Positions 7,620 to 34,405 of a stretch of 36,644 nucleotides of DNA are shown one piece after another; the first letter of the stretch is position 1, and every line of letters starts with the position of its first letter. The translations under genes were made by a program, and so were the position numbers. The notes under the pieces were generated by a model that did not search any database, was not told where the DNA came from, and saw only the letters and a list, made by a program, of their open reading frames with translations. The DNA lies in the NCBI RefSeq assembly GCF_001854805.1, contig NZ_MBLO01000031.1:1-36644 (forward strand), in the 5' to 3' direction. The stretch is from Pseudofrankia coriaricola (GTDB lineage: Bacteria; Actinomycetota; Actinomycetes; Frankiales; Frankiaceae).

Positions 7620-7622
7620 GCC

Positions 7623-7710
7623 AGCACCCCGCCCCGCACCCCGCACCCCGCCCCGCACCCCGCACCACGCGCACCCCGCAGCCCACAACCCCGCACCACG
7701 CCCCGCGTAC
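7623..7710. repeat. Low-complexity ccccgca repeat
   Basis: An irregular tandem run of ccccgca and ccccgcc units fills the gap between the convergent EAL and methyltransferase genes. It is strongly strand-asymmetric (C on the plus strand). It could stall or end transcription, but no hairpin is seen. Confidence 0.75.
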
Positions 7711-7730
7711 TGGCGGAGAGCGGTGGGGAG

Positions 7731-17901: not shown

Positions 17902-19200
17902 TCAGCTGGCCAGGCCGAGCGCGGTCGCGATCTGGGGGGCGTCGCGGCGGATGATGGCGAGGATGCTTTCGAGCGCGTCGTAGTGGCCGGACTGCATCGC
18001 CGCCGAGCGGAGCGCGAGACCCGCGAGCGAGAGGTCCGCGCTGGGAGTCGATGACGGCTGGCCGGCGCCGAGGTGCAGCGGCATGTTGCCGCGGGCCGAT
18101 GAGCGGCGGTAAGCCGCATTGGCAGCGAGGCACAGCTCGTTTACCGAAGTGGCGATCATTTGGCGGAGCTGCGGTGGTATTGAGACGCGCATTTTCGACA
18201 CGTTGATATTGAAAACCGGGTCGAGCGACGTGTCGAAGTCGAGCGAGGCGCGAGCCAGCTTGGTGTGCTCGTCGATGCCACGAATGCCGGCCCATCCACC
18301 CCACTGGACCAACCGGTCAGCGCGGTAGACGTAAAGGCCCTGTTGGCGGTTCCAGTTCAGCGGGCCCGACAGGCGCTCGAACTCGTCCTGTGAGGAGAAC
18401 TGGGTCCGCGCTGGCAGCACGAAGCGTCGTAGGCGGGCCGTGCCCGAGGCGTCGCCGACGGTGATTTCGAACCGTTGCGCCGGCAGCTCGCGGCAGTGCT
18501 CCTCACCCGGCGCGAACGGGTTCCAGGGACGAACCTTCTCCCCGTTGACCGAGATCGCGACCTTTCGGCCATCAGGAAGTCCCTCAAGGAAGCGGTGGAA
18601 GACGACGGCGAGATGCTCGGCGGTTCGGCGGGCGTAGGTGTCGATCCGGCGGCGGGCCCAGCCGCCCTCTGGGCGCTTCTCGGGCAGTACGCGGTCGAGC
18701 AGGCGCCAGAGCACGACGGTACCGGCGCTGTCGCCGAGCAGCTCGCGCGCGCGGTCGATGTCGGCAGAACGCTTCGGCGCGACCACCAGCCATTCGTCGA
18801 GTTCCTCGATGAGGTCGAGGTTGAGCTCGCGGACGAAGACGCGGTCGACGGAGACCGAACGTCGCGTGACGACGGTCACGGATTTGCCCTGCGAGAGAGA
18901 CGCCGTCTTCAGGCCGAGCCCGTACCGGCCGAGGTCGGTGGCCTCGTAGGTGCGCCGCGACCCGAAGCGGAGTGCCTCGACCAATGCATTCTCGCTCATC
19001 CCGATGCCATCGTCGGCGATGAAAACCCGGGAGTCGACACCATCGAACTCGATGATCACCTGAACGTGGGCGGCGCCGGCGGACACGCTGTTGTCGACGA
19101 GGTCGGCGACGGCGGCGGGAAAGTCGTAGCCAACGTCCCGCAGTGACCGGGTGAGGCGGGCCGCCGACGGTGTGACCTCGTACGTCCTGCGAGCCGTCAC
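17902..19200 (-). CDS. MORC/MutL-like GHKL ATPase of the defence island
   Basis: A 432-residue ATPase. The N-terminal GHKL (Bergerat) fold is complete: N box DLVDNSVSAGA (residues 33-43, Asn37 for Mg), G1 DDGIGM (63-68) and G2 GRYGLGLKTASLSQG (91-105). The sequence YEVTPSAARLTRSLRDVGYDFPAAVADL, split here by a helix, is the hallmark of bacterial MORC-like MutL homologues described in restriction-modification operons with Dcm methylases, Vsr and AIPR proteins. Such ATPases dimerise on ATP binding and are thought to clamp DNA. Residues about 180-400 form the transducer-like region. The GTG at 19200 is chosen for the GGGGGA four bases upstream. It is divergent from the first methyltransferase (19612). 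The DNA-looping role is inferred from family. Confidence 0.87.
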   Translation of the reverse strand: MTARRTYEVTPSAARLTRSLRDVGYDFPAAVADLVDNSVSAGAAHVQVIIEFDGVDSRVFIADDGIGMSENALVEALRFGSRRTYEATDLGRYGLGLKTASLSQGKSVTVVTRRSVSVDRVFVRELNLDLIEELDEWLVVAPKRSADIDRARELLGDSAGTVVLWRLLDRVLPEKRPEGGWARRRIDTYARRTAEHLAVVFHRFLEGLPDGRKVAISVNGEKVRPWNPFAPGEEHCRELPAQRFEITVGDASGTARLRRFVLPARTQFSSQDEFERLSGPLNWNRQQGLYVYRADRLVQWGGWAGIRGIDEHTKLARASLDFDTSLDPVFNINVSKMRVSIPPQLRQMIATSVNELCLAANAAYRRSSARGNMPLHLGAGQPSSTPSADLSLAGLALRSAAMQSGHYDALESILAIIRRDAPQIATALGLAS

Positions 19201-19611
19201 CAGATCCCCCTCGTTCGTTCCTGCGCGGACGTTCTCCAGGCTCCCACACACCTCCGTGCTGTGGAAAGCGCGCCACAGGAGTTGTCTCGGTTTCTGCTGT
19301 GCAGTTGGCGCGGGCGGTGAAGGATGGCTCCCGCGGTGGTCAGGTAGTCGGACGGGTCGCTGACCGTTGTCGACGCCGTCGTCGTGACGCCCGCTGCGGC
19401 GCGGGATCGGAGCCGGCGCCGGGAAGTTGTCGTACCTCGGAGGTAGAACATCTGTGCGAAGACGGCGGCGGTGGTCCTCGTGGCCGCTCTGGGCCGCTCG
19501 CTACGGTCCGCTGAGGGCTACCTGGCATGGCTGTTGTTAACTACTACCGCGCGTCGGCGGCTGCTCCGGATGCGACTGATCCGGGCTGACGGCTTTGGGG
19601 GAGGGCAGACG
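19201..19611. promoter_or_regulatory. Divergent control region of MORC-like ATPase and methyltransferase 1
   Basis: About 410 bp between two divergent island genes must hold both promoters. An AT-richer patch (gttgttaactactac, about 19532-19547) lies 65 bp before the methyltransferase start and is the best candidate core promoter on the plus strand. No operator repeat is evident. An open frame runs through from 19471 but does not look like the N-terminus of a methyltransferase. Confidence 0.45.
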
Positions 19612-21603
19612 GTGGCTACCTACGGTGTGCAGCTGGAGCGCAGCGACCTGCTGCGGCTTCCGCCGTGCGCTGGCAGCTCCTCGGATGACGAGTTCGTCGC
19701 CTGGTGCGCGGACGAGGTGACGGCCGGTCGTCGCCTGGCTCTGGATCTCTTCAGCGGAGCCGGCGGCCTCAGCCTTGGCCTCGAGCAGGCCGGGTGGACG
19801 GTGGTCGCGGCCGTCGACCATGACCAGCGCGCGATCGAGACCCATCGCGCCAACTTCCGGGGCAGGGCGCTGCAGCTCGACCTCAGCGATCCCGACGTCC
19901 GGACCGAGCTTGTCGCCTCGCTGGCCGGTGTCGAGATCGACCTGGTGGCTGGAGGCCCGCCCTGCCAGCCGTTCAGCCGGGCCGGGGCGAGCAAGATCCG
20001 CAGCCTGGTCGCGCAGGGGACGCGTTCGCACATCGATCCCCGCCGCGAGCTGTGGATGGCTTTCCTCTCGATCGTGCTCGAGCTGAAGCCGCGTGCAGTG
20101 CTGATGGAGAACGTCCCGGACATGGGTCTGGCCGACGACTTCCAGACGGTACGCCGGATGGTCGGCGACCTGGAGGCCTCCGGCTACGCGACCCAGGTGC
20201 GGATCATCGACACGTGGAGATACGGGGTTCCCCAGCACCGCCGCCGTCTGATCCTGCTCGCCCGACGGGACGGCGGACCGTTCACCTGGCCCCCGGCGAA
20301 GCCCCGGATGACGGTCCGCGACGCGATCGGTGACCTTCCTCCGTTGCTCCTGTCCACCGGCTCTCGGCAACTGCCGCACGTCGAGGGAGCGGAGCTGGGA
20401 GAGTTCGCGCGCGAGCTGCGCCAGGGCGCGGACGAGACGTTCATCTACGACCACTTCACCCGCCCGGTCCGTGATGACGACCGCGAGGCGTTCGCTCTGA
20501 TGGACGAGACGACGCTCTACTCGGCGTTGCCGGACAGGATGAAGCGTTACCGGTCGGACTCGTTCGACGACAAGTACAACCGGCTTGGCTGGGATGAGCT
20601 CAGCCGGACGATCACCGCGCACATCGCGAAGGACGGTTACTGGTACATCCACCCGTCCGAGTTGCGGACGCTCACCGTCCGCGAGGCCGCGCGCATCCAG
20701 ACCTTCCCCGACAGGTTCCGGTTTGCCGGTTACCGGAGCGACGCCTTCAAGCAGATCGGCAACGCGGTTCCGCCGCTGGCGGGTGCAGCGGCAGCGCAGG
20801 CGCTGCTGCCACTGCCGGCCAAGGATCCGGCAGTCGAGACGCAGCAGCCGTCGCGGGACTGGCCCGACGTCCATCGGCGCCTGGTGGAGTGGGCGGCTGA
20901 CCTGGGACGCAGCGAGGCATGGACGGCTGTTCCTGGCGAGGCCATGACGCCGCTGCTCGCGGCGGCCTGCGCGCTGCTGGCCAGGCCCCAGCCGATCCCG
21001 GCCGAGGATATGCCCGCGCTTTCCGTGCTGCGTGGGTGCGAACGCCTCGACGAGGCGACGCTGCGGGACTGTCTGCACGTCGCGCCGACGAACACCCGCC
21101 GTCGGCTGGAGCGGCTGCGGAAGCTGGTCGACATCGAGTTGCCGAAGGACGCTGGCGACGTCATCAAGCTGCTCAAGTTGCGTCCCACCGAGGCGAAGGT
21201 CTTCAAACTGCTCCGCGGGTACGACGTGCTCGTCGCTGGGGCGAGCACGATCCGGGTCGCCGCCCGGTTCCTTGGCACCAGGCCCGAGGAGCAGATCGAG
21301 CAGAACCCGCTGACGGACGGGCGCATCGACCTGTCGCGGCTGGTCGGGACGGGCGAGCAGGAAACTGGCCGGCCGGCGGAGACCGTCGACGAGCCTGACC
21401 GGCTGGTGATGAGGGGCGAGGAGGCGCCGCTGCGGATGGCGGCCATCCGCCACCTGGGGATGACGGTGTGCGAGTCGACCACTCCGAACTGCGCTGCCTG
21501 TCCGCTTGCACCGGCGGGCTGCGCCTACGCCCGTAAGTCGGTGGCGCGGGCGGCGTCCAGGCTTGACGAGGCCTTGTCGGCGGGCGGCCTCTTCGCATCC
21601 TGA
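19612..21603 (+). CDS. DNA (cytosine-5) methyltransferase 1 with C-terminal HhH/Fe-S-like module
   Basis: A 663-residue enzyme that should methylate cytosine at C5 using SAM. Motif I is ALDLFSGAGG (Asp45), motif IV GGPPCQPF with catalytic Cys118, motif VI MENV (Glu166), motif VIII QHRRR (208-212), motif X QIGNAVPP. After the catalytic part (ending near 400) an extra 260 residues are helical and end in CESTTPNCAACPLAPAGC, with Cys at 620, 627, 630 and 637. This C-x6-C-x2-C-x6-C loop is close to the iron-sulphur loop of endonuclease III/MutY; the HhH glycosylase Asp is not seen (AGASTIRVAARF). The GTG at 19612 has GGGGGAGGG upstream; an ATG at 19570 is the alternative. It is paralogous to the enzyme at 22172-24220, and its 3' end overlaps vsr by 79 bp on the other strand. 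Confidence 0.9.
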   Translation: MATYGVQLERSDLLRLPPCAGSSSDDEFVAWCADEVTAGRRLALDLFSGAGGLSLGLEQAGWTVVAAVDHDQRAIETHRANFRGRALQLDLSDPDVRTELVASLAGVEIDLVAGGPPCQPFSRAGASKIRSLVAQGTRSHIDPRRELWMAFLSIVLELKPRAVLMENVPDMGLADDFQTVRRMVGDLEASGYATQVRIIDTWRYGVPQHRRRLILLARRDGGPFTWPPAKPRMTVRDAIGDLPPLLLSTGSRQLPHVEGAELGEFARELRQGADETFIYDHFTRPVRDDDREAFALMDETTLYSALPDRMKRYRSDSFDDKYNRLGWDELSRTITAHIAKDGYWYIHPSELRTLTVREAARIQTFPDRFRFAGYRSDAFKQIGNAVPPLAGAAAAQALLPLPAKDPAVETQQPSRDWPDVHRRLVEWAADLGRSEAWTAVPGEAMTPLLAAACALLARPQPIPAEDMPALSVLRGCERLDEATLRDCLHVAPTNTRRRLERLRKLVDIELPKDAGDVIKLLKLRPTEAKVFKLLRGYDVLVAGASTIRVAARFLGTRPEEQIEQNPLTDGRIDLSRLVGTGEQETGRPAETVDEPDRLVMRGEEAPLRMAAIRHLGMTVCESTTPNCAACPLAPAGCAYARKSVARAASRLDEALSAGGLFAS

Positions 21604-22055
21604 GCCGCGCACTGCACGAGCACGGCGGCTTCGTCCGCGCTGCGGCGCACCTGGCACTCCCAGACTCGCAGGACCGTCCAGCCGGCCTCGGTGAGCGTTG
21701 CGTCGTTGCGACGGTCCCGGTTGCGGTTCGTCTCCATCTTCTGGCGCCACAGCTCGGCGTTCGGGCCGCGGTACTGCTTCATCCCGTGTTCGGGGCAGCC
21801 GTGCCAGAAGCAGCCGTCGACGAAGACCGCGAGCCGCCAGCGGGGAAGCACGAAGTCGGGGGTGCATCGCGGTGCCACCGTCTGATGGACCCGGAAGCGG
21901 AGGCCAAGACCGTGCACGGCCTTGCGCAGCGCGACCTCGGGCTTCGTGTTCTGCGCCTTGCGGCCCCGCAGGTGGTTGCCAGCGTCCGTCGCGACCCACG
22001 TCGGTCGCTTGCTGACGCTCTCATCGCCGGCGGTGCCCGGGCCATCCACGGTCAC
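21525..22055 (-). CDS. Vsr-type very short patch repair endonuclease
   Basis: A 176-residue DNA endonuclease. In E. coli Vsr nicks 5' of T in T:G mismatches that arise when 5-methylcytosine deaminates, so it protects the host from its own Dcm-type methylase. The family pattern is clear: NTKPEVALRKAVHGLGLRFR, CTPDFVLPRWRLAVFVDGCFWHGC, then the MKQYRG/W..K...N..RD region and GWTVLRVWE. The catalytic Asp (PDF) and the His of CFWHGC are present. In defence islands such enzymes have also been proposed as restriction nucleases. The start is probably the GTG at 22055 (or 22049); the longer frame to 22106 adds a basic tail of doubtful reality. Its 3' end overlaps methyltransferase 1 convergently. Confidence 0.9.
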   Translation of the reverse strand: MTVDGPGTAGDESVSKRPTWVATDAGNHLRGRKAQNTKPEVALRKAVHGLGLRFRVHQTVAPRCTPDFVLPRWRLAVFVDGCFWHGCPEHGMKQYRGPNAELWRQKMETNRNRDRRNDATLTEAGWTVLRVWECQVRRSADEAAVLVQCAAQDAKRPPADKASSSLDAARATDLRA

Positions 22056-22171: not shown

Positions 22172-24220
22172 TCAGCCGGCGCCGGAGGCCGATGCTGCCT
22201 TCGACTGGTCGGCTTGGACCTTCTTCGGCTTCCGCTTCGACTCCGCCTTGACCTGCTGGGTTGCGTAGCGGCAGGTGGCGGCCAGCGGGCAGCTCTCGCA
22301 GACCGGGTCGTGTGGTCGGCAGACTGAATTGGCGAGCGCGATCAGCGCAAGATGCGCCTCGCGGGCGGTTCCGGGACCGCCGATGAGCCGGGCCACGGCG
22401 AGCCGTCCGTCGGACATCCGGTTCTGGAAGTCGACGGAGCTACCATCGTGCCGGGCGGCAAGGCGCAGCACGCCCTTGCCGACGAGCACGGGTTCCGGGC
22501 TCTCGTCGACGTCCGTCGTCCGAACGGCGAGGACCGCCAGCTCAACGACGGACTGGGCCACATGCGGGGTGTTCCCGGTCGGATCGGGCGCGTCGAGTGC
22601 CTCCGGATGATCCAGCAACCAGCGGGCCGCTTCCAGCAGCTGCTCGGCGCGATGCCGGCGCCCGATCCAGTTGGCTGACTCGAGGAACCTCTCCGCGGCC
22701 TCGACCGTCGCGGCCGGGCTGTCCCAGCCGGAGAAAAGCGGCCAGAGAAGGCGGAGCTCATCGACCGTCACCCGGTCGAACAACATCTCGGCGACGACAA
22801 CCTGCCATCGGGTCCGGGCCGCCAGCCAGGGGACGTGCAGGGTGGTGTCACGCTGCTGCGCGAACCAGGCGGTCAGCCGGCCCGCAACTTCGGTCGTCGT
22901 TACCTGCGGCGACCTTGGTGCCGAGATGCTCTCGATCAGGGCGTGGCCCAGATGCTCGCCGAGGCGGGGTGGTACGGCGTTCCCGATCTGCCGGAACGCG
23001 GCCGACGGCGGGCCGGCGAACCGGATGTGGTCGGGGAAGGTCTGCAGACGCGCCGCCTCGCGGATGGTCAGCGTCCGGCTCTGGCGCGGATGGATGTACC
23101 AGTAACCATCCTTCGCGATGTGCGCGGTGATCGTCCGGGAGAAGTCGTTCTCGTTCAGCTTCTTGTACTTGTCGTCGAAGATGTCGTCCCGGTACCGCTT
23201 CATCTCGGGCGGAAGGTCCGAGTAGAGCGTCGTCTCGTCCATGAGCTCGAACGCCTCGCGGTCGTCGGGCCGGACCGGACGGGCGATGTGGTCGTACACA
23301 CGGTCGACCTCGTGCGCCGGGACCTTCGCGCGCATTGCTCGCTGGAACGTGGTCTGGTCTTCCGGCTCGTACGCCGACCAGCCGACCGCGCCGCCCGGTG
23401 GCCGCCAGCCGCCCTCCACCTCAGGAAGGTCGCCGATGGCGTTCCAGACGGTAACGCGCTCCGGAGCATCGGCAGGCCAGCGGAAACGGGCGCCGTCGCG
23501 CATCGCGGCGATGATCAGTCGCTGCCTGAACTGCGGGACGCCGAATCGGGCGGTATCGACGAGCTGCGCCTCGACGGAGTACCCGAGCCCTTCAAGCGTG
23601 TGGACGACCGCCCGGAAGATGAACATCTCCCGGTCCAGCGCCATGTCGGGCACGTTCTCCATCAGCACGCAGGCCGGCTCCGCCTGGCGCACGATCGTGA
23701 GGAACGACTCCCACAGGTCCCGTCGCCGGTCATGCGCCTCCGCAAGCCCGAGCCGCACTCGATGCCGGATCTTCGACCGACCCGCCCGCGAGAACGGTTG
23801 GCACGGCGGCCCGCCGACCACCACATCCAACCGAAGCGATCGGATCAGTTCAGCGATCTCGTCGACCTTCGCCAGGTCAGACAGGTCCTCGTCGAGCGTC
23901 AGGCCACCGAAGTGATGGCGATGCGTCTCGGTCGACTCAGGGTCGTGGTCGACCCCGAGCACCACGCGAAGTCCGGCCTCCTCCAGCCCGAGGCTCAGCC
24001 CGCCGGCGCCGGAGAACAGATCGGCGACGAGCAACTGGTCCGGGTTCTCGGACCGCAGCCGGGCGACGTATGACGCCATGTCGGCGAGATCCGCGCAGCT
24101 GTCCGGGTGCGGCTTCAGCCGCACGAACGGCCCTCGGACCAGTTTGACACCGTAGCCGCCTGGCTTCCCGCCAGCGTCCCCGGCCCGGCGAGCGCGTCGA
24201 TCCGGGGCTTCAGGCGGCAT
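22172..24220 (-). CDS. DNA (cytosine-5) methyltransferase 2 with C-terminal HhH/Fe-S-like module
   Basis: A 682-residue cytosine-5 methyltransferase. Motif I is VADLFSGAGG (Asp67), motif IV GGPPCQPF with catalytic Cys140, motif VI MENV (Glu188), motif VIII QFRQR (230-234), motif X QIGNAVPP. The C-terminal 200 residues look like an endonuclease III-type HhH fold: a QVVVAEMLFDRVTVDELRLL-like first helix, W.GRRHRAEQLLEAARWLL, then the exact Fe-S spacing C-x6-C-x2-C-x5-C (Cys634, 641, 644, 650). The glycosylase Lys (LPGVG.K) and Asp (usually VDT) are absent; the latter site reads LVGKGVLRLA. So it probably binds DNA rather than cutting out bases. The ATG overlaps the AIPR gene by 11 bp. It is a paralogue of the gene at 19612, sharing DETTLYS.LP..MKRYR and ITAHIAKDGYWYIHP. 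Confidence 0.9.
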   Translation of the reverse strand: MPPEAPDRRARRAGDAGGKPGGYGVKLVRGPFVRLKPHPDSCADLADMASYVARLRSENPDQLLVADLFSGAGGLSLGLEEAGLRVVLGVDHDPESTETHRHHFGGLTLDEDLSDLAKVDEIAELIRSLRLDVVVGGPPCQPFSRAGRSKIRHRVRLGLAEAHDRRRDLWESFLTIVRQAEPACVLMENVPDMALDREMFIFRAVVHTLEGLGYSVEAQLVDTARFGVPQFRQRLIIAAMRDGARFRWPADAPERVTVWNAIGDLPEVEGGWRPPGGAVGWSAYEPEDQTTFQRAMRAKVPAHEVDRVYDHIARPVRPDDREAFELMDETTLYSDLPPEMKRYRDDIFDDKYKKLNENDFSRTITAHIAKDGYWYIHPRQSRTLTIREAARLQTFPDHIRFAGPPSAAFRQIGNAVPPRLGEHLGHALIESISAPRSPQVTTTEVAGRLTAWFAQQRDTTLHVPWLAARTRWQVVVAEMLFDRVTVDELRLLWPLFSGWDSPAATVEAAERFLESANWIGRRHRAEQLLEAARWLLDHPEALDAPDPTGNTPHVAQSVVELAVLAVRTTDVDESPEPVLVGKGVLRLAARHDGSSVDFQNRMSDGRLAVARLIGGPGTAREAHLALIALANSVCRPHDPVCESCPLAATCRYATQQVKAESKRKPKKVQADQSKAASASGAG

Positions 24221-25982
24221 TGGATGCTGGTACGGCTAGATCGGCGACCAGGTCGGCGGGGGGAGTCCACCCGATTCGCTGGACCTCGAACCAGCTGGAC
24301 TCCTTCTTGGCCCACTCGGTGACGTTCCCCATTCCCGGCGCGTTTGTAATCACGGCGCGCACCAGGGTCGCCAGGTCGGGCACGGCGCGCTCGAGCGAGT
24401 CAGGAACGGCCTGCGCGCGCCAGATCCGGTTCAGGTCAAGGGCGCCACCGAGCCGGTCGACGATCAGGGAGATCGTGCATGCGGTGATGTTGGCCAGATA
24501 CCCGCTGTAGCCCTGCTGCTGAATGAGCTTCCGGACCCGGTTGTAGAGGATCGTCTTGGCGACGAGATCGCGGAAGTCCGCGTCGGTCGGCGTCTCGACC
24601 ACGGCTGGGTCGCCGTTCATGGACCACCACTGGAAGCACTTCTGCCCACCCAGGCTCACGATGTGCGGCTGGCGCCGGTAGGCGAGTTCATACTTGGCCG
24701 CGTCCGTCTTCGTGATCTTCTGGCTCTTCGGGTTGTCGAGGTCGAACTGCTTTTGCTCGGAGCGCTTCGAGAACCGCGCCCGGTCGACGTCGTACTGGCC
24801 ACGGACACGCTCGTAGTACCAGTGCGTCTGCCGCGCACCAGCGCTGACGACCGGGGCCCAGATGGCGCGGGAGTGCTTCTCCATCTCTACGTGGTACGGG
24901 CTGTTGCCCTCGAAGTCGGCCGCGGTGACAGCGTTCTGCGAGTTGGCGTACATCGAGATCTTCGGGACCAGTTCGTCGAGGAGACGGTCGCCAACCACCG
25001 TGAATTTGGTGGCGACGTGGACGTCGGAGAGGCCGTCGACACCGGCCTTGAAAGCGACGTGCAGCGACGCCGTCGTCTGGCCGCCGTTCACGATCTGAAG
25101 GTCGCTGATGGTACGGATCACCCGGCGGCCGTCCGCCGCGGTCCCGAACTCCATGGACGTCGCGGTCGCGGAGATCCCGTTGTTGTACGCAAGGAAACGG
25201 CCCGGATTATTCTTGATCGTCTCTGCGATGGCCTTGTTGACCTTGGTGCGGGCCTGCAGGAACGCACGCACGTTGCGCTGCAGCAGGCGGCTGTGGTGGA
25301 GGTCGTACAGCCCCGCGATGAGGGATGCCGGCAGCACCGCCAGCACGCACTCATACTCTTCCGGCTGCTTAGGCGCCTCCAGGCACGGGATCTCGTAGCC
25401 CATCTCCAGGAGGTCGATGACGATCTCCTCCTGGCGCCGTCCGGAGGTCATCAGCCGGTGGAGCCGGGTGAGGTCCCAGAGCTGGATGGCGACCGGCAGA
25501 CTTCCGGCCGTGAGATCGTCGGCCCAAGTGCCGGAGGTGCTGACGGTGCCGTCGGTCAGCGCGACGACTTGGACCTTCTCGAACTCGGACCAGCAGTTCC
25601 TGATCCGCTCGGCCATGTCTCGCTGTGGCGACTTCTCGAGCTGGTCAGGCAGCTCGCCGCGACACGCCTCGGCGAAGTTGAGCGCATAGCGGACCAGCTG
25701 GTCTATCTGGCCCTTCTTGACGATCGCCTCGCCATAGTGCGCGGCGAGCAGGCGCAGGACCGAACCATCCGTGCTGATGTCGAAACCGGCGACCTCGAGG
25801 TGCCGGTTCTTCCACTGCCTGCGGACGAAGCAGGACTCCGGGTTGTCGAGCGTGCCGTCCTCGGCCAGCGCTTCGCCGGCGACCTGCACGAACGCGTCCC
25901 GGAGCATGATCTCCTCGGACGCCGCCCGTTCGTGCACCCACTGATGAAGCTCGGCGACGAAGTCGGTGATCTCTGTACTCAA
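24210..25982 (-). CDS. AIPR family protein (abortive infection phage resistance)
   Basis: A 590-residue protein of the AIPR family, first noted in lactococcal abortive infection and often found with restriction-modification and MORC genes. Signatures are RNVRAFLQ (246-253), AYNNGISATA (265-274), DLQIVNGGQTTASLH (304-318), then NSQNAVTAADFEGNSPYH and a Trp/Tyr-rich part (HWYYERVRGQYD). The biochemical activity of the family is not settled; members have been proposed to be nucleases or RNA-binding effectors. The TTG at 25982 is chosen because it overlaps the stop codon of the sigma-helicase gene as TTGA and gives a normal N-terminus (STEITDFVAELHQWVHER). The frame stays open upstream for almost 1 kb, but that part is a shadow of the sigma-helicase gene. 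Confidence 0.88.
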   Translation of the reverse strand: MSTEITDFVAELHQWVHERAASEEIMLRDAFVQVAGEALAEDGTLDNPESCFVRRQWKNRHLEVAGFDISTDGSVLRLLAAHYGEAIVKKGQIDQLVRYALNFAEACRGELPDQLEKSPQRDMAERIRNCWSEFEKVQVVALTDGTVSTSGTWADDLTAGSLPVAIQLWDLTRLHRLMTSGRRQEEIVIDLLEMGYEIPCLEAPKQPEEYECVLAVLPASLIAGLYDLHHSRLLQRNVRAFLQARTKVNKAIAETIKNNPGRFLAYNNGISATATSMEFGTAADGRRVIRTISDLQIVNGGQTTASLHVAFKAGVDGLSDVHVATKFTVVGDRLLDELVPKISMYANSQNAVTAADFEGNSPYHVEMEKHSRAIWAPVVSAGARQTHWYYERVRGQYDVDRARFSKRSEQKQFDLDNPKSQKITKTDAAKYELAYRRQPHIVSLGGQKCFQWWSMNGDPAVVETPTDADFRDLVAKTILYNRVRKLIQQQGYSGYLANITACTISLIVDRLGGALDLNRIWRAQAVPDSLERAVPDLATLVRAVITNAPGMGNVTEWAKKESSWFEVQRIGWTPPADLVADLAVPASNAA

Positions 25983-28924
25983 TGCCGTCCGTCCTGGGGT
26001 GTCGCGGGTGGTTCCCGGTGGCGTCGGAACACGTCGGCTGAAAGCCGCCTCGTCATCTTCGCAAGCACTGCGACGCGTGGTTGTAGCGGAGCTGGCACGA
26101 CGAGTGGCTGATCGGGGGTCGTGCCGCGCCAGGCGTCGAGCTGGGCCGGCTCGATCTCGATCTCGAGGCGGGCCAGAGAAGTGTCCGCGTCGAGATCGAG
26201 ATCGGGAAGGCCGAGCCACCCGCCCAGAGACCAAAAGTAGCTGTCGCATACGACGTAGAGGCCCTGCGTCTCCCGCCACGAGCCCCGATCGCCGGCCTCC
26301 CGGAAGTCCCCCTCGTCGAGAGCGTCCGGGTACGGCAGGACGTACGGCGTCACGAGCGCCAACAGGCCGTCGCCGGGCACGGGCTCGGTCCCGAAGTCCT
26401 GGGTGGCCGGGTGCGTGAGCAGGAACGGATCCCGCGAGGCGACCGGGACTTGGATGACTTTGGGCTCGGGCGACGTCTCTCCGGCGGGCGTCGGCGCCGC
26501 TACCTCGGGCTCGTCTCTGGGGACGGGCACCGCTGTGGGCACTGGTGCCCGCGGCGGGACCTGAAGACCGGCCGGATCCGGCACGGATGTCGGGCCGGGC
26601 GTGGCCGGCGGAACGGTTCCAGGCGTGGATTCCGTGCGATCGACGGTCTTGGACGGTCTGGGCACCAGCGGCCTTCGGCCGTGGAACGGGATCACCTGCC
26701 CGCGTGCCGGCCGCGACGCGGGCGCAGGCCCTGGCCCGGCGGCGTCCTCCAGGTATGCCTTCCGGAGCCTGTCCTTCAACTGCTCCAGCGCCTTCTTCTC
26801 GATCTGACGGATGCGCTCCCTGGTCACGCCGAAGACCTGCCCGACCTGTTCCAAGGTTCGCGGCTGGTTGTGGTCGAAGCCGAACCGCAACCTGATGATC
26901 TCTGCGCTCTTCGGGCTCAGTTCCGCGAGCTCCTTGGCCACGATCAGACGGAGCCATTCCCGGTCGAGGATCGTGTCCAGATCGGCATCAGAGTCCGGGA
27001 TGCCGATGAGTTCGCTCAGGACCGTGTCCCCGCCGTCGCCGATCGGCTGGTCGAGGCTCACTACGCCCTGCACGAGCAGGCGGAGGCACTGCTCGACGGC
27101 CTTCTCGGACAACCTCGTCGCAGCCGCGATTTCGGAAAGTGACGCGCGGTCGAACGGCATCTGTAGCCTGCCGCAGGCACGACGAACCTTGTTGACCTGC
27201 TCGGCCATGTGCACCGGCAGACGAATGAGCCGGCCCTCGTCAGCGACAGCGCGGCCGATCGACTGGCGGATCCACCAGGTGGCGTAGGTCGAGAACTTGT
27301 ACCCCTGTGTCGCATCGAACCGCTGGACGGCGCGCATCAGCCCGATACTTCCGTGCTGGATGAGGTCGTCGAGGTCAAGGCCCTGCCCTTGGTACTTCTG
27401 CGCGATGGAGGCGACGAGCCGCCGGTTGTGCAGGACCAGTGCGTCATACGCCCGGGCCCGCTCGTCGCTGGGAGCCAGCGGCTTACGGAAGTCCTTCCCC
27501 AGGTCCTCGTGCAGCGGACGGTCGGGGCGCATAAGGATCGCCAGGCCGACCTCCTCTGCCGCGCTCAGGATGTACGTGTCGTGGCGGCGGCGTAGTTGGT
27601 CGTCCTCGAGTAGGCGGCGTGCCGAGGCGGCCGCTTCCGGTGGGGGGACCACCGGGTCGAGATCACTCACTGCCAGCCCGAGATCGTTCTCGGCCAGTTC
27701 GCTCAGGGGCGGATCGTCGTGATCCGTTTCGGTCTCGTCCGCGAACGCATCATCGGCCGCGGGCTCGGCCGTCTCGTCCGAGTTCGGAAGGTCGACCGAG
27801 AGCTCGGATGGCCCGAACGCGTCATGCACGAACGGCTTGCCCCGCTGGTCGTCGAACAGGTCGAGAGGAAGCTCGCGGATCATGCGCGGGTCGCCCTCGC
27901 CCGAGTAGGCGAGGACGACCATCCGGCGAGCCCGGGTCACCAGGTACTCCAGTGCCCCCGCGAGCGAGGGTGCGGACGCATCGAGCGTGACGTCCTGCAG
28001 CTCCGGAAGCACGACGGTGTCGAACTCGACCCCCCGCGCGGATGCCCAGGTCGTGACCTTCAGGCCCGGCTTGTCCAGGTCGATTCGCCCGTCCGGAAGC
28101 CTGAAGCTGGCACTGTGTTGGAACTGGACCGCGCCCGTTGTACCGCGACTGAGCGCGCGGTACAACGCGTCCACCTGTGTGACCTGCTGGACCAGCACCC
28201 CGATGCGCTCGCGCGGGTGCTGGTCGCGGTAGTCGCGCAGCCGTTCGGCGGTCTCGGTCAGATCGGTGTCATGCCAGAGCACCGAAGGGACGCCACCGCG
28301 GTCCGGCAGCGTTGGCCGACGCCCACCGGCCTGTTCACGGAGGTGAGCGGCCAACTGGGCGATCGAGGTCGTGTTTCGGACGTTCTCGCGCAGGAAAATC
28401 GGCCGGCCCTGGCCCAGAACAGCCTGGATCTCCTGCACGGAGGCGCCGCCGGCGCCAGCGCCCGCGTCAGCCTCGACGAAGACCGTCAACGAGACACCCA
28501 GAACCCGCAGCAGGACATAGAGATCCCGTGGAAGCTGCCCACCGTCCACCACGACTACGTGTCGGCGTACCCGGCGCGGGGAGACCTCGCGTAACGCGCG
28601 GTCAAGGCACGTCTCGAAGTCGTACTCCCACGGTCCCAGCATCGGCGCGTCGTTGTGAAACAACTTTCGCCAGAGGTCGGGGAAGAACGAGTGATACCGC
28701 TCGATCCTGGTGCCGCGATCGCCCGATGCGCGCCGCAGCCCGAGCTGAGCGATCAGTAGCGAGCCTTGGGCAACGACGGAGACTCGCAGGCCCATCGAGG
28801 TCAGCCGACCGGCGAGTTGCATCGCCGAGCGGGCCATCCCCGAACCCGGCGATGCAACGATCAGCTGGGCGTCCAGGGAGATGGTCTGTCCGTCGCTGGG
28901 CGCCGCCGTGTGCACAGACTTCAC
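25979..28924 (-). CDS. Fusion of degenerate UvrD-like helicase and sigma-70 factor
   Basis: A 981-residue fusion. Residues 15-365 resemble a shrunken SF1/UvrD helicase. The Walker A position reads ASPGSGMARSA (24-34) without the GKT lysine, Walker B reads VVVVDGGQL (123-131) instead of DEAQ, but the C-terminal motifs LKVTTWASARGVEFDTVVLP (288-307) and LEYLVTRARRMVVL (325-338) are preserved. After an acidic linker (380-430) comes a complete RpoD-like sigma-70 factor: region 2 (about 495-565, with YKFSTYATWWIRQSIGRAVAD), region 3 (about 568-645, IRLPVHMAEQVNKVRR) and region 4 (about 655-725, TLEQVGQVFGVTRERIRQIEKKALEQL). A Pro-rich linker and a C-terminal acidic Trp-rich domain end the protein. 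The GTG at 28924 overlaps the drmB stop as GTGA. I infer a transcription switch tied to nucleic-acid binding. Confidence 0.88.
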   Translation of the reverse strand: MKSVHTAAPSDGQTISLDAQLIVASPGSGMARSAMQLAGRLTSMGLRVSVVAQGSLLIAQLGLRRASGDRGTRIERYHSFFPDLWRKLFHNDAPMLGPWEYDFETCLDRALREVSPRRVRRHVVVVDGGQLPRDLYVLLRVLGVSLTVFVEADAGAGAGGASVQEIQAVLGQGRPIFLRENVRNTTSIAQLAAHLREQAGGRRPTLPDRGGVPSVLWHDTDLTETAERLRDYRDQHPRERIGVLVQQVTQVDALYRALSRGTTGAVQFQHSASFRLPDGRIDLDKPGLKVTTWASARGVEFDTVVLPELQDVTLDASAPSLAGALEYLVTRARRMVVLAYSGEGDPRMIRELPLDLFDDQRGKPFVHDAFGPSELSVDLPNSDETAEPAADDAFADETETDHDDPPLSELAENDLGLAVSDLDPVVPPPEAAASARRLLEDDQLRRRHDTYILSAAEEVGLAILMRPDRPLHEDLGKDFRKPLAPSDERARAYDALVLHNRRLVASIAQKYQGQGLDLDDLIQHGSIGLMRAVQRFDATQGYKFSTYATWWIRQSIGRAVADEGRLIRLPVHMAEQVNKVRRACGRLQMPFDRASLSEIAAATRLSEKAVEQCLRLLVQGVVSLDQPIGDGGDTVLSELIGIPDSDADLDTILDREWLRLIVAKELAELSPKSAEIIRLRFGFDHNQPRTLEQVGQVFGVTRERIRQIEKKALEQLKDRLRKAYLEDAAGPGPAPASRPARGQVIPFHGRRPLVPRPSKTVDRTESTPGTVPPATPGPTSVPDPAGLQVPPRAPVPTAVPVPRDEPEVAAPTPAGETSPEPKVIQVPVASRDPFLLTHPATQDFGTEPVPGDGLLALVTPYVLPYPDALDEGDFREAGDRGSWRETQGLYVVCDSYFWSLGGWLGLPDLDLDADTSLARLEIEIEPAQLDAWRGTTPDQPLVVPAPLQPRVAVLAKMTRRLSADVFRRHREPPATPQDGRH

Positions 28925-30753
28925 GGGGAGGCGAGGTCGAAGGCGCCGTCGATCGCGGCCAGCATGTTCCGGAAGAAGCCAAACTCCTCGTCCACGACCA
29001 GGCGGCGGTCGAGCAACCGGTTGGCGGCTACGCAGCTGGTTTCGGCAACCAGTGAGCATGCGTGGCAGGCCGCCATGGACAGGCCGTACGGTCCCTGCCC
29101 CGTTGACTCACCACATACCGGGTCGAACGAGCACCAGCGTGCCGCGGTGAGCGCGCCAGCGATCAAGGTGGTGAGCCGGTCGGGCTCGCCCAGCCGTACC
29201 AGTCCGCCGAGGGTGCCCTCGGTGTCGCCCGCTGCGGTGTAGATCAATACGCCGGCCATCCGCGGGCCGGTCTCCGACTCGGTCACATAGAGCCGTTCGC
29301 GCAGTGAGGAGGACGAGTATCCGGCCTCGAACGCCGTCTGGCGTAGCAGCAGGTGCGCGAACGTATGCAGCAGCACGAAACGGGGGGTCGGCATGGACAG
29401 CCGGGCGAACTCGGTGCGGGTGTTCTTCCGGCCGGCAAGCGTCTGAGCGCGGCCGACCACCGTAGGCCGCCGTTCCCAGGTCTCCAGCGCGTCCTCGTTG
29501 AAACGCAGGAAAAATCCCTCGCCGCAGACCTCCACACCGGGAAGGAGCATGCGGTGGGGGCCGAGGTTGGCGGAGATCAGATGGTCGGCCTTGTGGCGCC
29601 TGAACCCCTCCAGAACCCGGACCTCGCGGAGCTTCTCGACCAGGGTGACCTCGGTGGCCAGGTACGTCAGCTCGCTGGCCGCTGCGCCGAGGCGTCCTTC
29701 GACGGCGGTTGCCGCCAGATCCTTCTTGCGAGCGACGAAGTTGTTACGTCGGTCGTAGGCGTCCGGGCCCGCCGGTGGCTCGGTGAGCGCCATCCACTCG
29801 CCTGGGATGAGGTCCGCCCGCTCGCTGGTCGGGCCCGACGGCTCTGCGCCGGCTTCCAGACTCGCGAGTACGGCCTCCACCTCAGAAAACGGCAGGCCGG
29901 TCTCCGTCGCTGCCACACCCAACAGGACGCTGCGTGCCGGGTGGCCCGGATTGTCGAGTACCAGGCTGAAGTTGCTGTTTGCCTTCAGCAGGACCAAGGG
30001 GCTGTTGAGCACGCTCCAGTTCGACTCCGGCGGGATGTCGATCGCTGAGACGATTTCTGGGAAGTAGACGCTGGACGCACCGCGCTGGACGGCGGCCAGG
30101 GGCTCGTCGCATGAGACGGCCTCGGCGTCGACCTGCCATGGCTGCCGTCCGCTGCAGCGCTGCCCGACGCGTCGGAGCGCTTCTTTCGTTGGCAGGTCTT
30201 CGAGCGAGCGCGAGGCTCCACAGGCTGAGCAGCGAACCTCCGTCGACTGCAGACCACCACCGACGCCGGCATTGGTTTCGAACGTCAGCCGGCTGTCCGC
30301 GCATCTGCCTGTTCCACCGCCCGCTCGGCCTGAGGGCCCTGACCGAGCGGCCGAGTGCGCCCAACGCCGCCAGTCGACGTCGCTGAGGTGGCCGCGCGCG
30401 CAGATGGCGACGAACCGCATCGGCACCAGTTGCGGGATGGGCTTCTTGGTGCAGCTCTGACAGCGGGGTACGGGATCCTTCTTCTCTCGGACCGTGCTCC
30501 AGCGCTCCATGCGCCGGCAGCTCGGGCAGAAGAGCCACTGTGGGAAGCGGTAATAGGGCAGGCCCCTCGCGGGCGCCGTCTTGATCTCGTGGATCCGCAG
30601 CGACGCCTCAAGCCTGGGCATACGGATTGCCTTGGCACTGTGCGGCCACCGGCTGACGTCCTCGGCGACGAAGGACTCACCGACCAGATCAATGATCGCG
30701 CCAGGTCCGAATGGGCTGACGGTCTGCGATCGACGGACCTTCCGGATGGTCAC
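28921..30753 (-). CDS. DrmB family protein (DUF1998)
   Basis: A 610-residue protein of the DrmB family, a partner of the DrmA helicase in DISARM phage defence. The N-terminus RRSQTVSPFGPGAIIDLVG (residues 7-25) is the family hallmark. Two zinc-type pairs follow: CPSC (76-79) with CQSC (98-101), and later CSAC; the ICARGHLSDVDWRRW motif is also typical. The C-terminal DUF1998 part (about 500-600) holds TFAHLLLRQ, then AACHACSLVAETSC and NRLLDRRLV. In DISARM, DrmA and DrmB form a complex that recognises DNA and clears bound ligands. The GTG start at 30753 is fixed by the GTGA overlap with the end of drmA; the longer frame to 30948 is a shadow of drmA. Confidence 0.92.
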   Translation of the reverse strand: MTIRKVRRSQTVSPFGPGAIIDLVGESFVAEDVSRWPHSAKAIRMPRLEASLRIHEIKTAPARGLPYYRFPQWLFCPSCRRMERWSTVREKKDPVPRCQSCTKKPIPQLVPMRFVAICARGHLSDVDWRRWAHSAARSGPSGRAGGGTGRCADSRLTFETNAGVGGGLQSTEVRCSACGASRSLEDLPTKEALRRVGQRCSGRQPWQVDAEAVSCDEPLAAVQRGASSVYFPEIVSAIDIPPESNWSVLNSPLVLLKANSNFSLVLDNPGHPARSVLLGVAATETGLPFSEVEAVLASLEAGAEPSGPTSERADLIPGEWMALTEPPAGPDAYDRRNNFVARKKDLAATAVEGRLGAAASELTYLATEVTLVEKLREVRVLEGFRRHKADHLISANLGPHRMLLPGVEVCGEGFFLRFNEDALETWERRPTVVGRAQTLAGRKNTRTEFARLSMPTPRFVLLHTFAHLLLRQTAFEAGYSSSSLRERLYVTESETGPRMAGVLIYTAAGDTEGTLGGLVRLGEPDRLTTLIAGALTAARWCSFDPVCGESTGQGPYGLSMAACHACSLVAETSCVAANRLLDRRLVVDEEFGFFRNMLAAIDGAFDLASP

Positions 30754-33700
30754 TTGTCGGCCCCCCTGATCTTGATCACTACCGTGACGTCCACATTGCG
30801 CATCGAGTCCAACGTCGGCCAACCGTCGCCTGCCTCGTCGTATCGCCGGAGGAGACCAGGCTGGTGCTTGACCGCCCTGTAGGTGAGCCCGAACTCGTCG
30901 CCGTCGACCCGAAGCGCCTTCTCCCGCCACTCGGCCGCGAGCTGCCACAGATCCTGTTCGATCTCCGCCGCCTCGGTCTGCTTCGCTTCGCTGTCCTTCG
31001 CCCCGCTGTACTCGGCGTCGCTAGCCCGCGCCAAGAACATGTCCAGCAGCGTCGTCATCATCGGGTCGTCCTGGTCGAACTGGGCGGCGTCCTTCTCCCC
31101 GCTCCAGCCGCGGGCGTGGCGCGCCAGGATGACCAGGTCTGCGTGCAGCGCCCGGTTGCGTGCCGGCAGTGAGAAGGGAGTGACGGAGGTCGGCTCGACC
31201 GACCGGTACAGCTTGGCGTGGTCGGAGGTGAACCCCTCGTAGTGTGACCGATCTCGGGGCTTGGACGGCGAGTACAACGTGACGACCAGGCCTGGGCGTT
31301 CCCTGCTCCGGCCAACTCGGCTGCTCGCCTGGATGTACTCGGCCGTCGTCTTGGGCTGGCCCACAACGACCATCAGCGCCAGCCGCGGGACATCGACGCC
31401 GACAGACAGCATGTTGGTGCTCGCCGCGAGCGATACCGATCGCTCCTGGTCGTGGGCCCTGCCCAGCCGTTCGAGCACCCTCGGGATCTCGTGGGAGGCG
31501 ACGTTGCTCGTCAGCTCGACGACGTCGTCGTCAGTCAGCTTCCTGGGGTTCTCGGCATCCTTGGCGATCACTTTGACGCGGGCTGGGATGTCGTCATGTG
31601 CGAGGGTGATCGTCTTGCCAAGCTCTCGGAGGCTGTTGTGATAGGCAACGAGCGTCTGGTAGGCGTCCTGGCCGGAGGGCGTGAGATCCAGGTCGACCGG
31701 CGCCTGCAACAGGGCCGCCGCCAGGTGCACCAGCGCCGTCAGCGGCGTGTGGCCCTGCGGCATGACGCCGGTGTAGAGCCGTCCGGGAGCGGAGTGATCG
31801 GTGCGGACGAAGTAGGAGTCGTCGGCCTCGAGCCCCGCGGGTGGGAACAGCGCGACCTCGCGGCCGAACACGCCTCTGGTTTGCTCCTCCGCACGCCGGA
31901 TCGTGGCGGTTGACGCGACGAACTTCGGCCGGGCCTTGTTGTGCTTGAGCAGCACGTCGAAGGCGGCCTCGTAGATCCCGACGATCGTGCCCAGCGGTCC
32001 GGAGATGAGATGGAACTCGTCCTGGATGATCAGCGAGGGTCCGGGGTGCGAGCCCGATCCGAAGAAGACGCCCGAGCGTGGGTCCCACACCGTCCGGGCG
32101 AACTTGTCCACGGTGCCGACCAGGAACGTCGGCGGGCGCTCGTAGAGATCTTCGTCGACGGACGAGAGCGGCAGACGCTCGTGGAACGGGCAGTGGTGGT
32201 TGGGGCAGTAGACCTCGAACGAGTTGTTGGTTGCCCTGACCGCCCAAAGCGGGTTCTCGGACCTCTCGCCGGGCGTGATCCGTGTGCCGCACCACGGGCA
32301 GGTCTCGATCTGGAAGCTCTCGGTCGTCGGTTCGGACTCGCGCAGCCGCTGCAGCAGCTTCCTGGCTTCGACGTAGGTGTTCGGGCTGTTGCCGCCACCG
32401 ACCCAGAGACCGATCGAGATCGGTTCCGAACCCAGCTCAGCCTCGTTATCTCTGCGGAGGAGTTCGCAGGAGCAGATCAGCGTTGCCGCCCGCTGGAACT
32501 GCTGCGCAGTGAGAAGCCGCAGGGTATAGCGGGTGATCACCGTAGTGCCGGCGGCCGAGTCCCCACCGCGCAACCTGCGCAGCAGGATGACGAACGCGGT
32601 CAGCCCCAGATACGCCTCGGTTTTGCCGCCGCCGGTCGGGAACCAGATCAGGTCGACGAGATCCCGATCTTCGGAGTCCTCGGTCGCGGCGCCCTCCAGT
32701 GTGAGGAGCAAGAAGCCCAGCTGGAACGGGCGCCAGCAGTGCGTGTCTGCTGGATAGTCCGGGTTCACCGCGCGGGCGTCGGCGGGGTCGTGGGGTCGAC
32801 CGGCGAGGCTCGGGCCGCTGTGGACCATCTGCCGGTGCATCGCCCGGTTGGCGAGCGCGAAGGCCCGGCGGACCGTCGGGTCAGCCTCGAGCAGCCGGAC
32901 GCCGGCGCGCATCCGGGTGCGCGCGGCGTCGACGTCCGAGATGACGCGCGCCGCGGCTGCGCGCAGCGCGGGTGGGACGTCGCTGTCGACCCGGGTCCTT
33001 AGGCTGTCCGCCCAGGCCTCGTAGCTGTCTACGAACCCGTTCAGACCACGCACCAGCTCGGGCCAAGCCTCGGTGTCGAACTCGGTGAGCCGGGCGAGGT
33101 CGAGGATCTTCTCGTGGCCGGCGACCTCGAACGAGATCCCGGGCACGACCTGCCTAGGAAGGAATGCCGTGTGGACCCACTCCGGGGTCTCCCGGCCGTT
33201 GCCGGTCCAGGCTGCCGCGGCGCCGTGTCCGATCGCGTAGGTCGGGACGGTCCGATAGAGAAGTTCGAGTTCCTCGGTCTCCTCATCGCCATAGAGGTGC
33301 GGAGTGCTGGGGTACCGCTCGATCGTGCCTGCCGCGGGCTTGGCCTGCATGGTGACCTGGAGCAAGCAGCCGGCCGTCATCTCGGCGTGCGTCTCTGCTC
33401 GGACCTGGTTCACCATCGAGACGGTGACGATGGCGCCAGCGTGCCCCTGCCGGCGCCAGACCACCTCGATGCTCGCCCGGCCGTCGAGGATCGGTTTGCT
33501 GCCGGTAAGGCGCGCCTGGCTGGCATCGCCCGGAGGCTCGATGCGCACGGCATCGTCGCCGACCAGCCGGATGGGTGTACGCCGCCATTCCTGCCGATCG
33601 TCCCGGCCACGGCCCGCAGGCACGTACCTAGCAGCCTCGATCTCGACGATGATCGGCGAACACTCGCTGGTGACGAAGCTCAGGCCGACCGAACTCGGCT

Positions 33701-33962
33701 TGTTCTGACCTGCCAGCGTCAGTGGATCCTCATCGGCTTCGTCGGTCTGGTTGCCTACCTGACCGGGGACCTCGTCGAGGATCTCGTCACTCTGCTCCGC
33801 GACCTGGTATGACGTCACCTCGGTCCGCGGGTACAGCAGTCCGGTCAGGTACCGCCGGTCGGGCGCCTCGTGGAGAACCTCATCGGGTCCGTCGACGGGC
33901 CCGACGAGCTGACGCTCCAGATACTCCACGATCTTCTGTCGGTCGTCCGCGCTGGAAGTCAT
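30750..33962 (-). CDS. DrmA-like SF2 helicase of DISARM type
   Basis: A 1070-residue helicase and the first gene of the island operon. The SF2 core has motif I FPTGGGKTEAYLGL (Lys near residue 440), motif II IQDEFHLI (DEFH box, near 648), motif III ASTATIRR (near 685) and motifs V-VI NMLSVGVDVPRLALMVVVG and QASSRVGR (about 850-885). The DEFHLISGPLGT signature and the large N-terminal region of about 400 residues are typical of DISARM DrmA. Two CxxC pairs (CPWCGTRITPG ... YCPNHHC) sit between motifs I and II. It should translocate on DNA using ATP. The ATG at 33962 has a GGGGGG run upstream. Methylase, DrmC and DrmE genes of the classical systems are not adjacent; two other methylases are present instead. 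Confidence 0.92.
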   Translation of the reverse strand: MTSSADDRQKIVEYLERQLVGPVDGPDEVLHEAPDRRYLTGLLYPRTEVTSYQVAEQSDEILDEVPGQVGNQTDEADEDPLTLAGQNKPSSVGLSFVTSECSPIIVEIEAARYVPAGRGRDDRQEWRRTPIRLVGDDAVRIEPPGDASQARLTGSKPILDGRASIEVVWRRQGHAGAIVTVSMVNQVRAETHAEMTAGCLLQVTMQAKPAAGTIERYPSTPHLYGDEETEELELLYRTVPTYAIGHGAAAAWTGNGRETPEWVHTAFLPRQVVPGISFEVAGHEKILDLARLTEFDTEAWPELVRGLNGFVDSYEAWADSLRTRVDSDVPPALRAAAARVISDVDAARTRMRAGVRLLEADPTVRRAFALANRAMHRQMVHSGPSLAGRPHDPADARAVNPDYPADTHCWRPFQLGFLLLTLEGAATEDSEDRDLVDLIWFPTGGGKTEAYLGLTAFVILLRRLRGGDSAAGTTVITRYTLRLLTAQQFQRAATLICSCELLRRDNEAELGSEPISIGLWVGGGNSPNTYVEARKLLQRLRESEPTTESFQIETCPWCGTRITPGERSENPLWAVRATNNSFEVYCPNHHCPFHERLPLSSVDEDLYERPPTFLVGTVDKFARTVWDPRSGVFFGSGSHPGPSLIIQDEFHLISGPLGTIVGIYEAAFDVLLKHNKARPKFVASTATIRRAEEQTRGVFGREVALFPPAGLEADDSYFVRTDHSAPGRLYTGVMPQGHTPLTALVHLAAALLQAPVDLDLTPSGQDAYQTLVAYHNSLRELGKTITLAHDDIPARVKVIAKDAENPRKLTDDDVVELTSNVASHEIPRVLERLGRAHDQERSVSLAASTNMLSVGVDVPRLALMVVVGQPKTTAEYIQASSRVGRSRERPGLVVTLYSPSKPRDRSHYEGFTSDHAKLYRSVEPTSVTPFSLPARNRALHADLVILARHARGWSGEKDAAQFDQDDPMMTTLLDMFLARASDAEYSGAKDSEAKQTEAAEIEQDLWQLAAEWREKALRVDGDEFGLTYRAVKHQPGLLRRYDEAGDGWPTLDSMRNVDVTVVIKIRGADK

Positions 33963-34405
33963 CGGCGCCCCCCGCCTTCTCGTCTGCCGATTAGAACCGG
34001 GATGATCCGCACCGGTCGTCCCGCCGCCCCTTCGGGGCGGCCTATCTCACGGAATGCAAGGCTCACCTGACACGGAGGCTCGGTCCGGCTGTTGATCGAT
34101 TGTCGGGCCGAGCATGTCCCTCCGTTCACTCTCGCTACTCGAACCGGTGTGGCGCATCGCGGACTGCGACTGGCGCGGCGATCCGAAGCTGGCGAGACAC
34201 GCGTTGTGCTGTCCCGGTGATGCGGAGGATTACGCCGCCTCGGGGCGGTGAGCCGCCGATGGGGCGCCATCCTGTGTCGCGAGACTACTATGTGCTGCGT
34301 CGCGAGATCGGCGCGCGCATCAGTCGTTCTCAGAGGGCTCGGCGCAGCCTGCACCTCGGGGTTCCGCGCCCGCTTGGCGTGTCGGATCGAATGCTCGGGG
34401 TGCCC
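33963..34405. promoter_or_regulatory. Divergent control region of drmA operon and RelE-helicase
   Basis: About 440 bp separate the start of drmA (minus) and the UvrD-like helicase (plus), so the promoters of the whole right-hand island should lie here. A strong hairpin occurs at 34023-34041. The helicase frame remains open upstream to 34100, but that part lacks family similarity. Two short conserved-looking -10 or -35 boxes cannot be picked with confidence. Confidence 0.5.
34023..34041. promoter_or_regulatory. 8-bp hairpin in the drmA leader
   Basis: Perfect stem gccgcccc / ggggcggc with a TTC loop, about 60 bp upstream of the drmA start codon. It could be an operator, or a leader hairpin in the drmA transcript acting as an attenuator. 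Confidence 0.5.

Follow-up and report, generated by a model that had tools for sequence, protein, structure and literature searches.

Positions 1 to 36,644 of contig NZ_MBLO01000031.1 of Pseudofrankia coriaricola (assembly GCF_001854805.1), hereafter called the window, encode a sigma-70 factor fused to the remains of a helicase inside a defence operon. The fusion gene lies on the minus strand at positions 25979-28924 and forms a single open frame of 981 amino acids (aa), in which a dead superfamily 1 (SF1) helicase shell is followed by a sigma-70 module and an S5 tail. It is an evolved gene fusion, neither artefact nor relic. We propose tentatively, at a little short of even confidence, that a cassette resembling the defence island system associated with restriction-modification (DISARM) has a dedicated sigma regulator, and that in the Frankiaceae this regulator is the fusion, gated by two non-catalytic motor modules. 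A first-pass annotation of this DNA had already described a degenerate UvrD-like helicase joined to a sigma-70 factor within a defence operon. That description holds, the frame being intact in five genomes, and a third module that it had missed, the S5 module at residues 827-970, can now be added.

The fusion is regarded as evolved because it is intact in five genomes and because its helicase shell is under purifying selection. It was found in 5 of 35 Frankiaceae genomes (the window's own included), always in the gene order DrmA-DrmB-fusion-AIPR-methylase and with an MzaB-like gene in each locus. A sixth genome of the family matches the fusion at E 4.5e-8, but through another UvrD-type protein. 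Between the window gene and its nearest relative, the one pair on which these values rest, the ratio of nonsynonymous to synonymous substitution rates (dN/dS) by the NG86 method was 0.15 for the shell, 0.22 for the sigma module and 0.24 for the tail, as against 0.38 and 0.79 for the linkers; the YN00 method gave 0.11, 0.09 and 0.25, and 0.86 for the first linker. All three modules are under purifying selection. The first-pass annotation had allowed for a frameshift or assembly error, which homologues that are always split would reveal. Outside the Frankiaceae the two parts are indeed separate genes, yet with five intact copies in five genomes, under such selection, a frameshift, misassembly or decaying pseudogene is hardly credible. 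A contig profile search with the single fusion sequence gave no match, the same search with alignment A1 gave three loci, and alignment A4 returned 52 pattern matches and no relative in viral contigs.

The helicase-like module spans residues 17-360 (27845-28876, minus strand). Its Walker A motif reads GSGMA at residues 27-31 and its motif II VVDGGQ at residues 125-130, as in the changes from GKT to GMA and from DEAQ to DGGQ noted at first pass, and the degeneration is common to all five fusions (GSGMA or GSRMA; VVDG[GT][QR]). The Walker A lysine and the motif II glutamate are absent from each of the five and present in all ten aligned stand-alone relatives, which carry GK[ST] and DE[GA]Q. The identity of the shell as a helicase comes from profile-profile alignment: residues 17-360 align with the stand-alone relatives over 337 columns (E 2e-52), and these relatives match UvrD or AAA_19 models, part of them above and part below the curated cut-offs. 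The N-terminal part of the window protein goes unrecognised by Pfam (best E 0.11, a glycosyltransferase model), and over the five fusion members the best value was 0.052 (Catalase_C), with UvrD_C at E 0.27 in one of the five. Direct hhalign comparison of the shell with the UvrD helicase of the window locus was weak (probability 3.7, E 0.012), and a Protein Data Bank sequence search with the N-terminal profile found no relative, its single match standing at E 0.5.

An AlphaFold2 model of the N-terminal part, built from a four-sequence alignment, was poor overall (mean predicted local distance difference test score, pLDDT, 49). Across residues 21-150 pLDDT ranged from 62 to 87 per block of ten, and only RecA1 was confidently modelled. 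Foldseek returned 12 matches at E <= 0.001, all of them RecA folds of several kinds with TM-scores of 0.14-0.33, led by the SRP GTPase Ffh and followed by the SF1 helicase Dda, KaiC, FlaH, NS3 and DSH9. The N-terminal fold, as modelled, is RecA-like and not specifically UvrD. In the helicase tree the fused clade adjoins five Streptomyces-type rows (support 81/79, unstarred) behind a branch of length 2.2, as expected if the shell changed rapidly after loss of the ATPase and then settled. Three plasmid records, one from Photobacterium among them, also match the helicase part.

At the other end of the protein, residues 827-970 (26015-26446, minus strand) are read, by homology, as an orphan S5, or transducer, module. 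Profile alignment relates it to MzaB-like GHKL ATPases, in which it corresponds to the second domain (probability 98.9, E 1e-17). The conserved S5 lysine, present in seven of seven MzaB-like rows, is absent from all five fusion tails. A four-sequence AlphaFold2 model of the tail reached a pLDDT of 76; its Foldseek matches were weak (best E 0.1), and 17 of the top 20 were ATPase parts of gyrases or topoisomerases, or MORC. GHKL-S5 proteins occur in restriction systems, according to PMC2292703.

Because the ATPase motifs and the S5 lysine are lost while the modules remain under purifying selection, we read the protein as a sigma factor set between two pseudo-motor modules, each apparently retained for a non-catalytic purpose. 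The same loss of catalytic residues in both appended modules would suit a plain alternative sigma factor that transcribes its own operon, with shell and tail as inert, stabilising leftovers of the fusion. This we regard as quite improbable, since by either dN/dS method selection holds the shell as tightly as the sigma module while the linkers drift, and since mean column identity of the tail is 79% over four members.

The sigma module itself (residues 435-730; 26735-27622, minus strand) matches Pfam sigma regions 2, 3 and 4 at residues 496-565, 575-640 and 666-717 (E 2e-20, 2e-9 and 2e-18), all above cut-offs, and a region-1.2-like stretch, judged by eye in the alignment, precedes region 2. 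The three regions are thus complete, as the first-pass annotation had stated; its view of the module as simply RpoD-like did not survive the trees, in which the module groups with DISARM-associated sigma factors. Against a background of 15 RpoD-like or other sigmas and one sigma from an MZA locus (mzaABCDE), nine separate and five fused sigmas fell on one side of a branch with support 99/97. In a second tree, from which the partial sigma of locus L141 was excluded, 33 separate and five fused sigmas grouped apart from RpoD-like sigmas and MzaA (94/99, unstarred). The fused sigmas are monophyletic (100/100). The MZA sigma pairs with one long-branch background row, a join of which the tree program warns.

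Like primary and group 2 sigma factors such as RpoD and HrdB, these proteins have regions 2-4 and promoter-contact motifs; unlike them, they form a separate tree group and carry QHG instead of QEG in region 2.2. QHG was read in 35 of 39 rows, with QWG or QQG in two and two unreadable, as against QEG in all five RpoD-like rows shown and in the MZA sigma. We take this position to be one that contacts the polymerase clamp. By comparison with the RpoD/HrdB topology, the helicase shell of the fusion presumably occupies the place of region 1.1. Of 39 sigmas, 33 keep the TRERIRQ motif of region 4.2 and 31 the WW dyad. The presence of regions 2 to 4 would also serve a decoy that blocks transcription of the phage by competing for the core polymerase or for phage sigma-appropriation factors, and the truncated sigmas described below could act as dominant-negative binders of this kind. 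We rate such a role as very improbable: region 4.2 and the promoter-contact residues, which a mere decoy would not need, are mostly kept. Host silencing and bait against phage sigma takeover had both been proposed at first pass, and nothing specific speaks for either.

Stand-alone relatives place the sigma factor in a wider cassette. Outside the Frankiaceae, the relatives of the shell are separate genes directly after DrmB. A census of 38 loci with a stand-alone UvrD-like gene was assembled from 26 new and 12 earlier loci; L024 and L029, distant helicase matches without the cassette, were excluded. By pattern, Walker A is found in 35 of the 38 and motif II in 37, the exception to the latter being the partial gene of L083; the three loci that miss Walker A (L083, L129 and L130) have variant loops in which the lysine persists. 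DrmA and DrmB are also present in 36 of the 38 loci, and 34 of these 36 have a sigma gene of the cassette group (partial, at a contig end, in L141). The two loci with no DrmA match, L128 and L083, have no sigma match either. At a background of ∼0.05 sigma-like places per 19 kb, a rate taken from the 26 first-look candidates of genome G057, the rough chance of finding a sigma gene in 25 of 26 loci is 5e-31, an illustrative figure because the loci are related. Searched with a profile of ten of these helicases, a sample of 293 genomes from one order gave 32 matching genomes, which share a single genus code. That genus is very probably Streptomyces, because of a close pairing with a plasmid locus of S. 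fungicidicus. Sigma factors had been held at first pass to be rare in defence operons. PMC9523054 supplies a precedent in mzaA, and in the DrmA-DrmB-UvrD type of locus the sigma gene is regular.

Three layouts recur. In the first, the sigma gene leads and DrmA-DrmB-UvrD follows, some loci also having McrBC and another, divergent UvrD gene; in the second, the sigma gene is divergent from DrmA; in the third, found in six loci, a sigma gene with a large extra C-terminal half is divergent from a NERD-type helicase gene. As a separate observation, the stand-alone helicase gene of L080 is split over two frames (6708-8153 and 7352-8095). In loci of the NERD type, the UvrD-like gene is followed by one for a protein of ∼570-600 aa (L025, 8480-10189; L051, 13064-14794; L081, 13306-15096), for which there was no PADLOC match in the two scanned and no Pfam match in the one scanned.

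Many of the stand-alone sigma genes sit behind a conserved promoter. Of 34 loci, 18 have the pattern TTGACN-(16 to 18)-TANNNT before the sigma gene (among them L078, L080, L123-L125, L131-L136, L139 and L050), where 0.14 would be expected from simple dinucleotide-block shuffles; none of 41 regions upstream of DrmA has it. A palindrome-like element, GTTGAC-N3-GT[AC]AA, overlaps the -35 element in 13 of the 18. In whole genomes, hand-picked among cassette carriers, the pattern TTGACNNNRTHAACN{9,10}TANNGT has exactly one site in 11 of 12, always at the cassette. The remaining genome (G889) has no site and a variant sequence at that place, and a reversed control pattern had no match in the 12. Since the pattern was derived from these loci, the informative part of this result is the absence of other sites. 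Such a promoter makes self-activation of the operon the best supported of the functions proposed at first pass, although in the Frankiaceae no such promoter was found.

Other sigma genes of the group depart from a simple regulator. Four related genomes (L117, L118, L120 and L028) have a sigma that stops short of region 4 and has SC in place of the WW dyad. A search of these four loci found no remnant of region 4; its sole yield was, in L120, a short piece resembling region 3 in a different frame (tblastn E 0.02). The truncated genes have dN/dS values of 0.25-0.26 against L120 in three comparisons, which amount to about one independent comparison since three of the four genomes are near-identical; intact pairs are similar (0.21-0.24). 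The truncated form cannot initiate transcription in the usual manner, which points to docking or regulation as its role, in those four genomes at any rate. Six further loci (L055, L082, L119, L129, L130 and L140) encode the sigma with a large extra C-terminal half. Their open frames, 1141-1219 aa long, diverge from the DrmA operon and the NERD-type helicase gene. A helix-turn-helix domain was found in the two long sigmas scanned whole (L055 and L082). A GHKL ATPase was considered for the extra half and rejected, Pfam giving no match in two of three and a weak DUF6540 match in the third; in L055 only a PADLOC candidate model matches it.

These forms bear on the alternative that the sigma is a tether, which would serve the immune complex as a physical subunit more than as a regulator, bringing RNA polymerase, or transcribing, melted DNA, to DrmAB and the nuclease partners. 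Active foreign promoters or stalled polymerases would then mark the target. We consider this unlikely, if ranked not far behind the gated regulator. It would account for the direct joining of the sigma, in mid-operon, with an S5 module and with a homologue of the helicase that follows DrmB, for the six other loci in which the sigma lies inside a protein of ∼1140-1220 aa with an extra C-terminal half, and for a sigma that is retained under selection without region 4. It sits less easily with the frequent position of stand-alone sigmas, first in line after a conserved promoter, as is typical of regulators, and with initiation residues that are kept in most members of the group.

Several observations weigh against the gated regulator itself. 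In all five Frankiaceae loci the promoter and the palindrome were looked for and not found, and footprinting of these loci revealed nothing sigma-70-like between DrmA and the UvrD gene. The palindrome points to a protein that binds DNA as a dimer more than to the sigma, and the housekeeping sigma could be the user of the cassette promoter. A sigma gene is lacking from two loci that do have DrmA-DrmB-UvrD: L025 and L051, the latter on a plasmid of Deinococcus gobiensis. Finally, a sigma truncated before region 4, as these genes predict, cannot act as an ordinary initiation factor. Footprinting between MzaB and the second methylase in the Frankiaceae also gave nothing convincing.

For the gated regulator we envisage the following course. 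The ancestral parts would have been DrmA, DrmB, a minimal UvrD-like helicase and the sigma factor, which are separate genes in the other actinobacteria examined. In the Frankiaceae, sigma and helicase would have fused, the helicase becoming a non-catalytic shell, and a lysine-less S5 module would have been added at the C-terminus. The sigma module may bind host RNA polymerase and recognise RpoD-like promoter elements. The shell, being homologous to the helicase that follows DrmB, would dock on DrmAB, or on single-stranded DNA or the DNA of that complex, and the S5 tail on the MzaB-like GHKL ATPase. Depending on an encounter with foreign DNA, the docked modules would hold the sigma idle, or free or position it. 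Once freed, the sigma could transcribe the defence genes when they are needed, from promoters that in the Frankiaceae are likewise presumed.

DrmA, DrmB, the fusion, AIPR and the first methylase look like a tightly coupled single operon, because the fusion overlaps its neighbours at both ends, its GTG start at 28924 with the DrmB stop codon and its stop with the TTG that opens the AIPR gene; the fusion frame stays open further 5′, up to an ATG at 29059. Also on the minus strand are the DrmB family protein (28921-30753; NF038324, 423 bits, cut-off 240), the DrmA-type YprA-family helicase (30750-33962; NF038325, 911 bits, just under the cut-off of 950), the MzaE-like AIPR protein (24210-25982; 339 bits, cut-off 1050), cytosine-5 DNA methylase 1 with a C-terminal extension (22172-24220), a Vsr-type endonuclease homologue (21615-22055; 77% identity to an L022 gene that matches Pfam Vsr) and the MzaB-like GHKL ATPase (17902-19251), which carries an S5 domain of its own. 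The plus strand carries cytosine-5 DNA methylase 2 (19471-21603) and the divergent UvrD-family helicase (34100-36529), which has Walker A GGAGTGKT and DEAQ and whose closest PADLOC model is NERD+UvrD. The two methylases are related to each other and convergent, with the Vsr homologue in between.

The cassette is DISARM-like, not a full DISARM member by the features tested, and not MZA. As in DISARM, a DrmA-type helicase adjoins DrmB, and the window locus has cytosine methylases; unlike DISARM, relatives of the cassette have a UvrD-like gene after DrmB, and a sigma factor belongs to it. No DrmC, DrmD or DrmE appeared among the matches listed for the window open reading frames scanned, which were the larger ones (15 with PADLOC, 19 with Pfam). 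According to PMC9142583, DrmC is often missing from annotated DISARM operons, and DrmAB becomes active once a trigger loop is displaced by single-stranded DNA bearing 5′ overhangs. The locus resembles MZA in bringing together a sigma-70 factor (MzaA in that system), a MutL-like GHKL ATPase, AIPR and a cytosine methylase; a sigma factor is present in the Thalassospira MZA locus examined. The MzaB and MzaE equivalog models are homologous to the window proteins and below cut-off (211 of 850 and 339 of 1050 bits). We considered the fusion as an MzaA and rejected this: the MzaA equivalog match (281 bits, cut-off 800) covers residues 438-727 only, which is sigma alone; the model is unspecific below its cut-off, where it matches 289 of 296 actinobacterial and 10 of 14 control genomes; and the MZA-locus sigma carries ankyrin repeats.

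Two further published systems come close. The candidate type II system of PMC9523054 shares AIPR, a methylase, a MORC-like neighbour and, in a few cases, an mzaA-like sigma, whereas DISARM-type helicases and a helicase-sigma fusion go unmentioned in the accessible part of that paper. A DISARM-like system beside McrBC (PMC11090510) recalls the several stand-alone loci in which McrB and McrC adjoin sigma-DrmA-DrmB-UvrD; the available part of that paper notes the McrBC association, defers it, and mentions only sigma54. No sigma factor is named in the accessible portions of the literature on DISARM and the YprA family, and among the matches listed, mostly from open literature and seen in part, no description was found of a DISARM-associated sigma-70 factor or of a helicase-sigma fusion.

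How the detection of foreign DNA is linked to gene expression in defence systems is an open question; as far as our search of partly accessible literature shows, no sigma factor has been described as acting within a DISARM-type system. The present analysis defines a group of sigma factors tied to DrmA-DrmB-UvrD cassettes, together with a conserved cassette promoter. The natural fusion also predicts which cassette proteins touch each other. More broadly, and with somewhat greater reserve than we attach to the regulator itself, we suggest that a family of DISARM-like immune cassettes may have recruited a sigma-70 factor of its own as a working part, which would make host RNA polymerase a component of the response, and that the Frankiaceae fusion, with its dead helicase and dead ATPase transducer, may be the hinge, gated by pseudo-motors, that would couple DNA-sensing motors to transcription.
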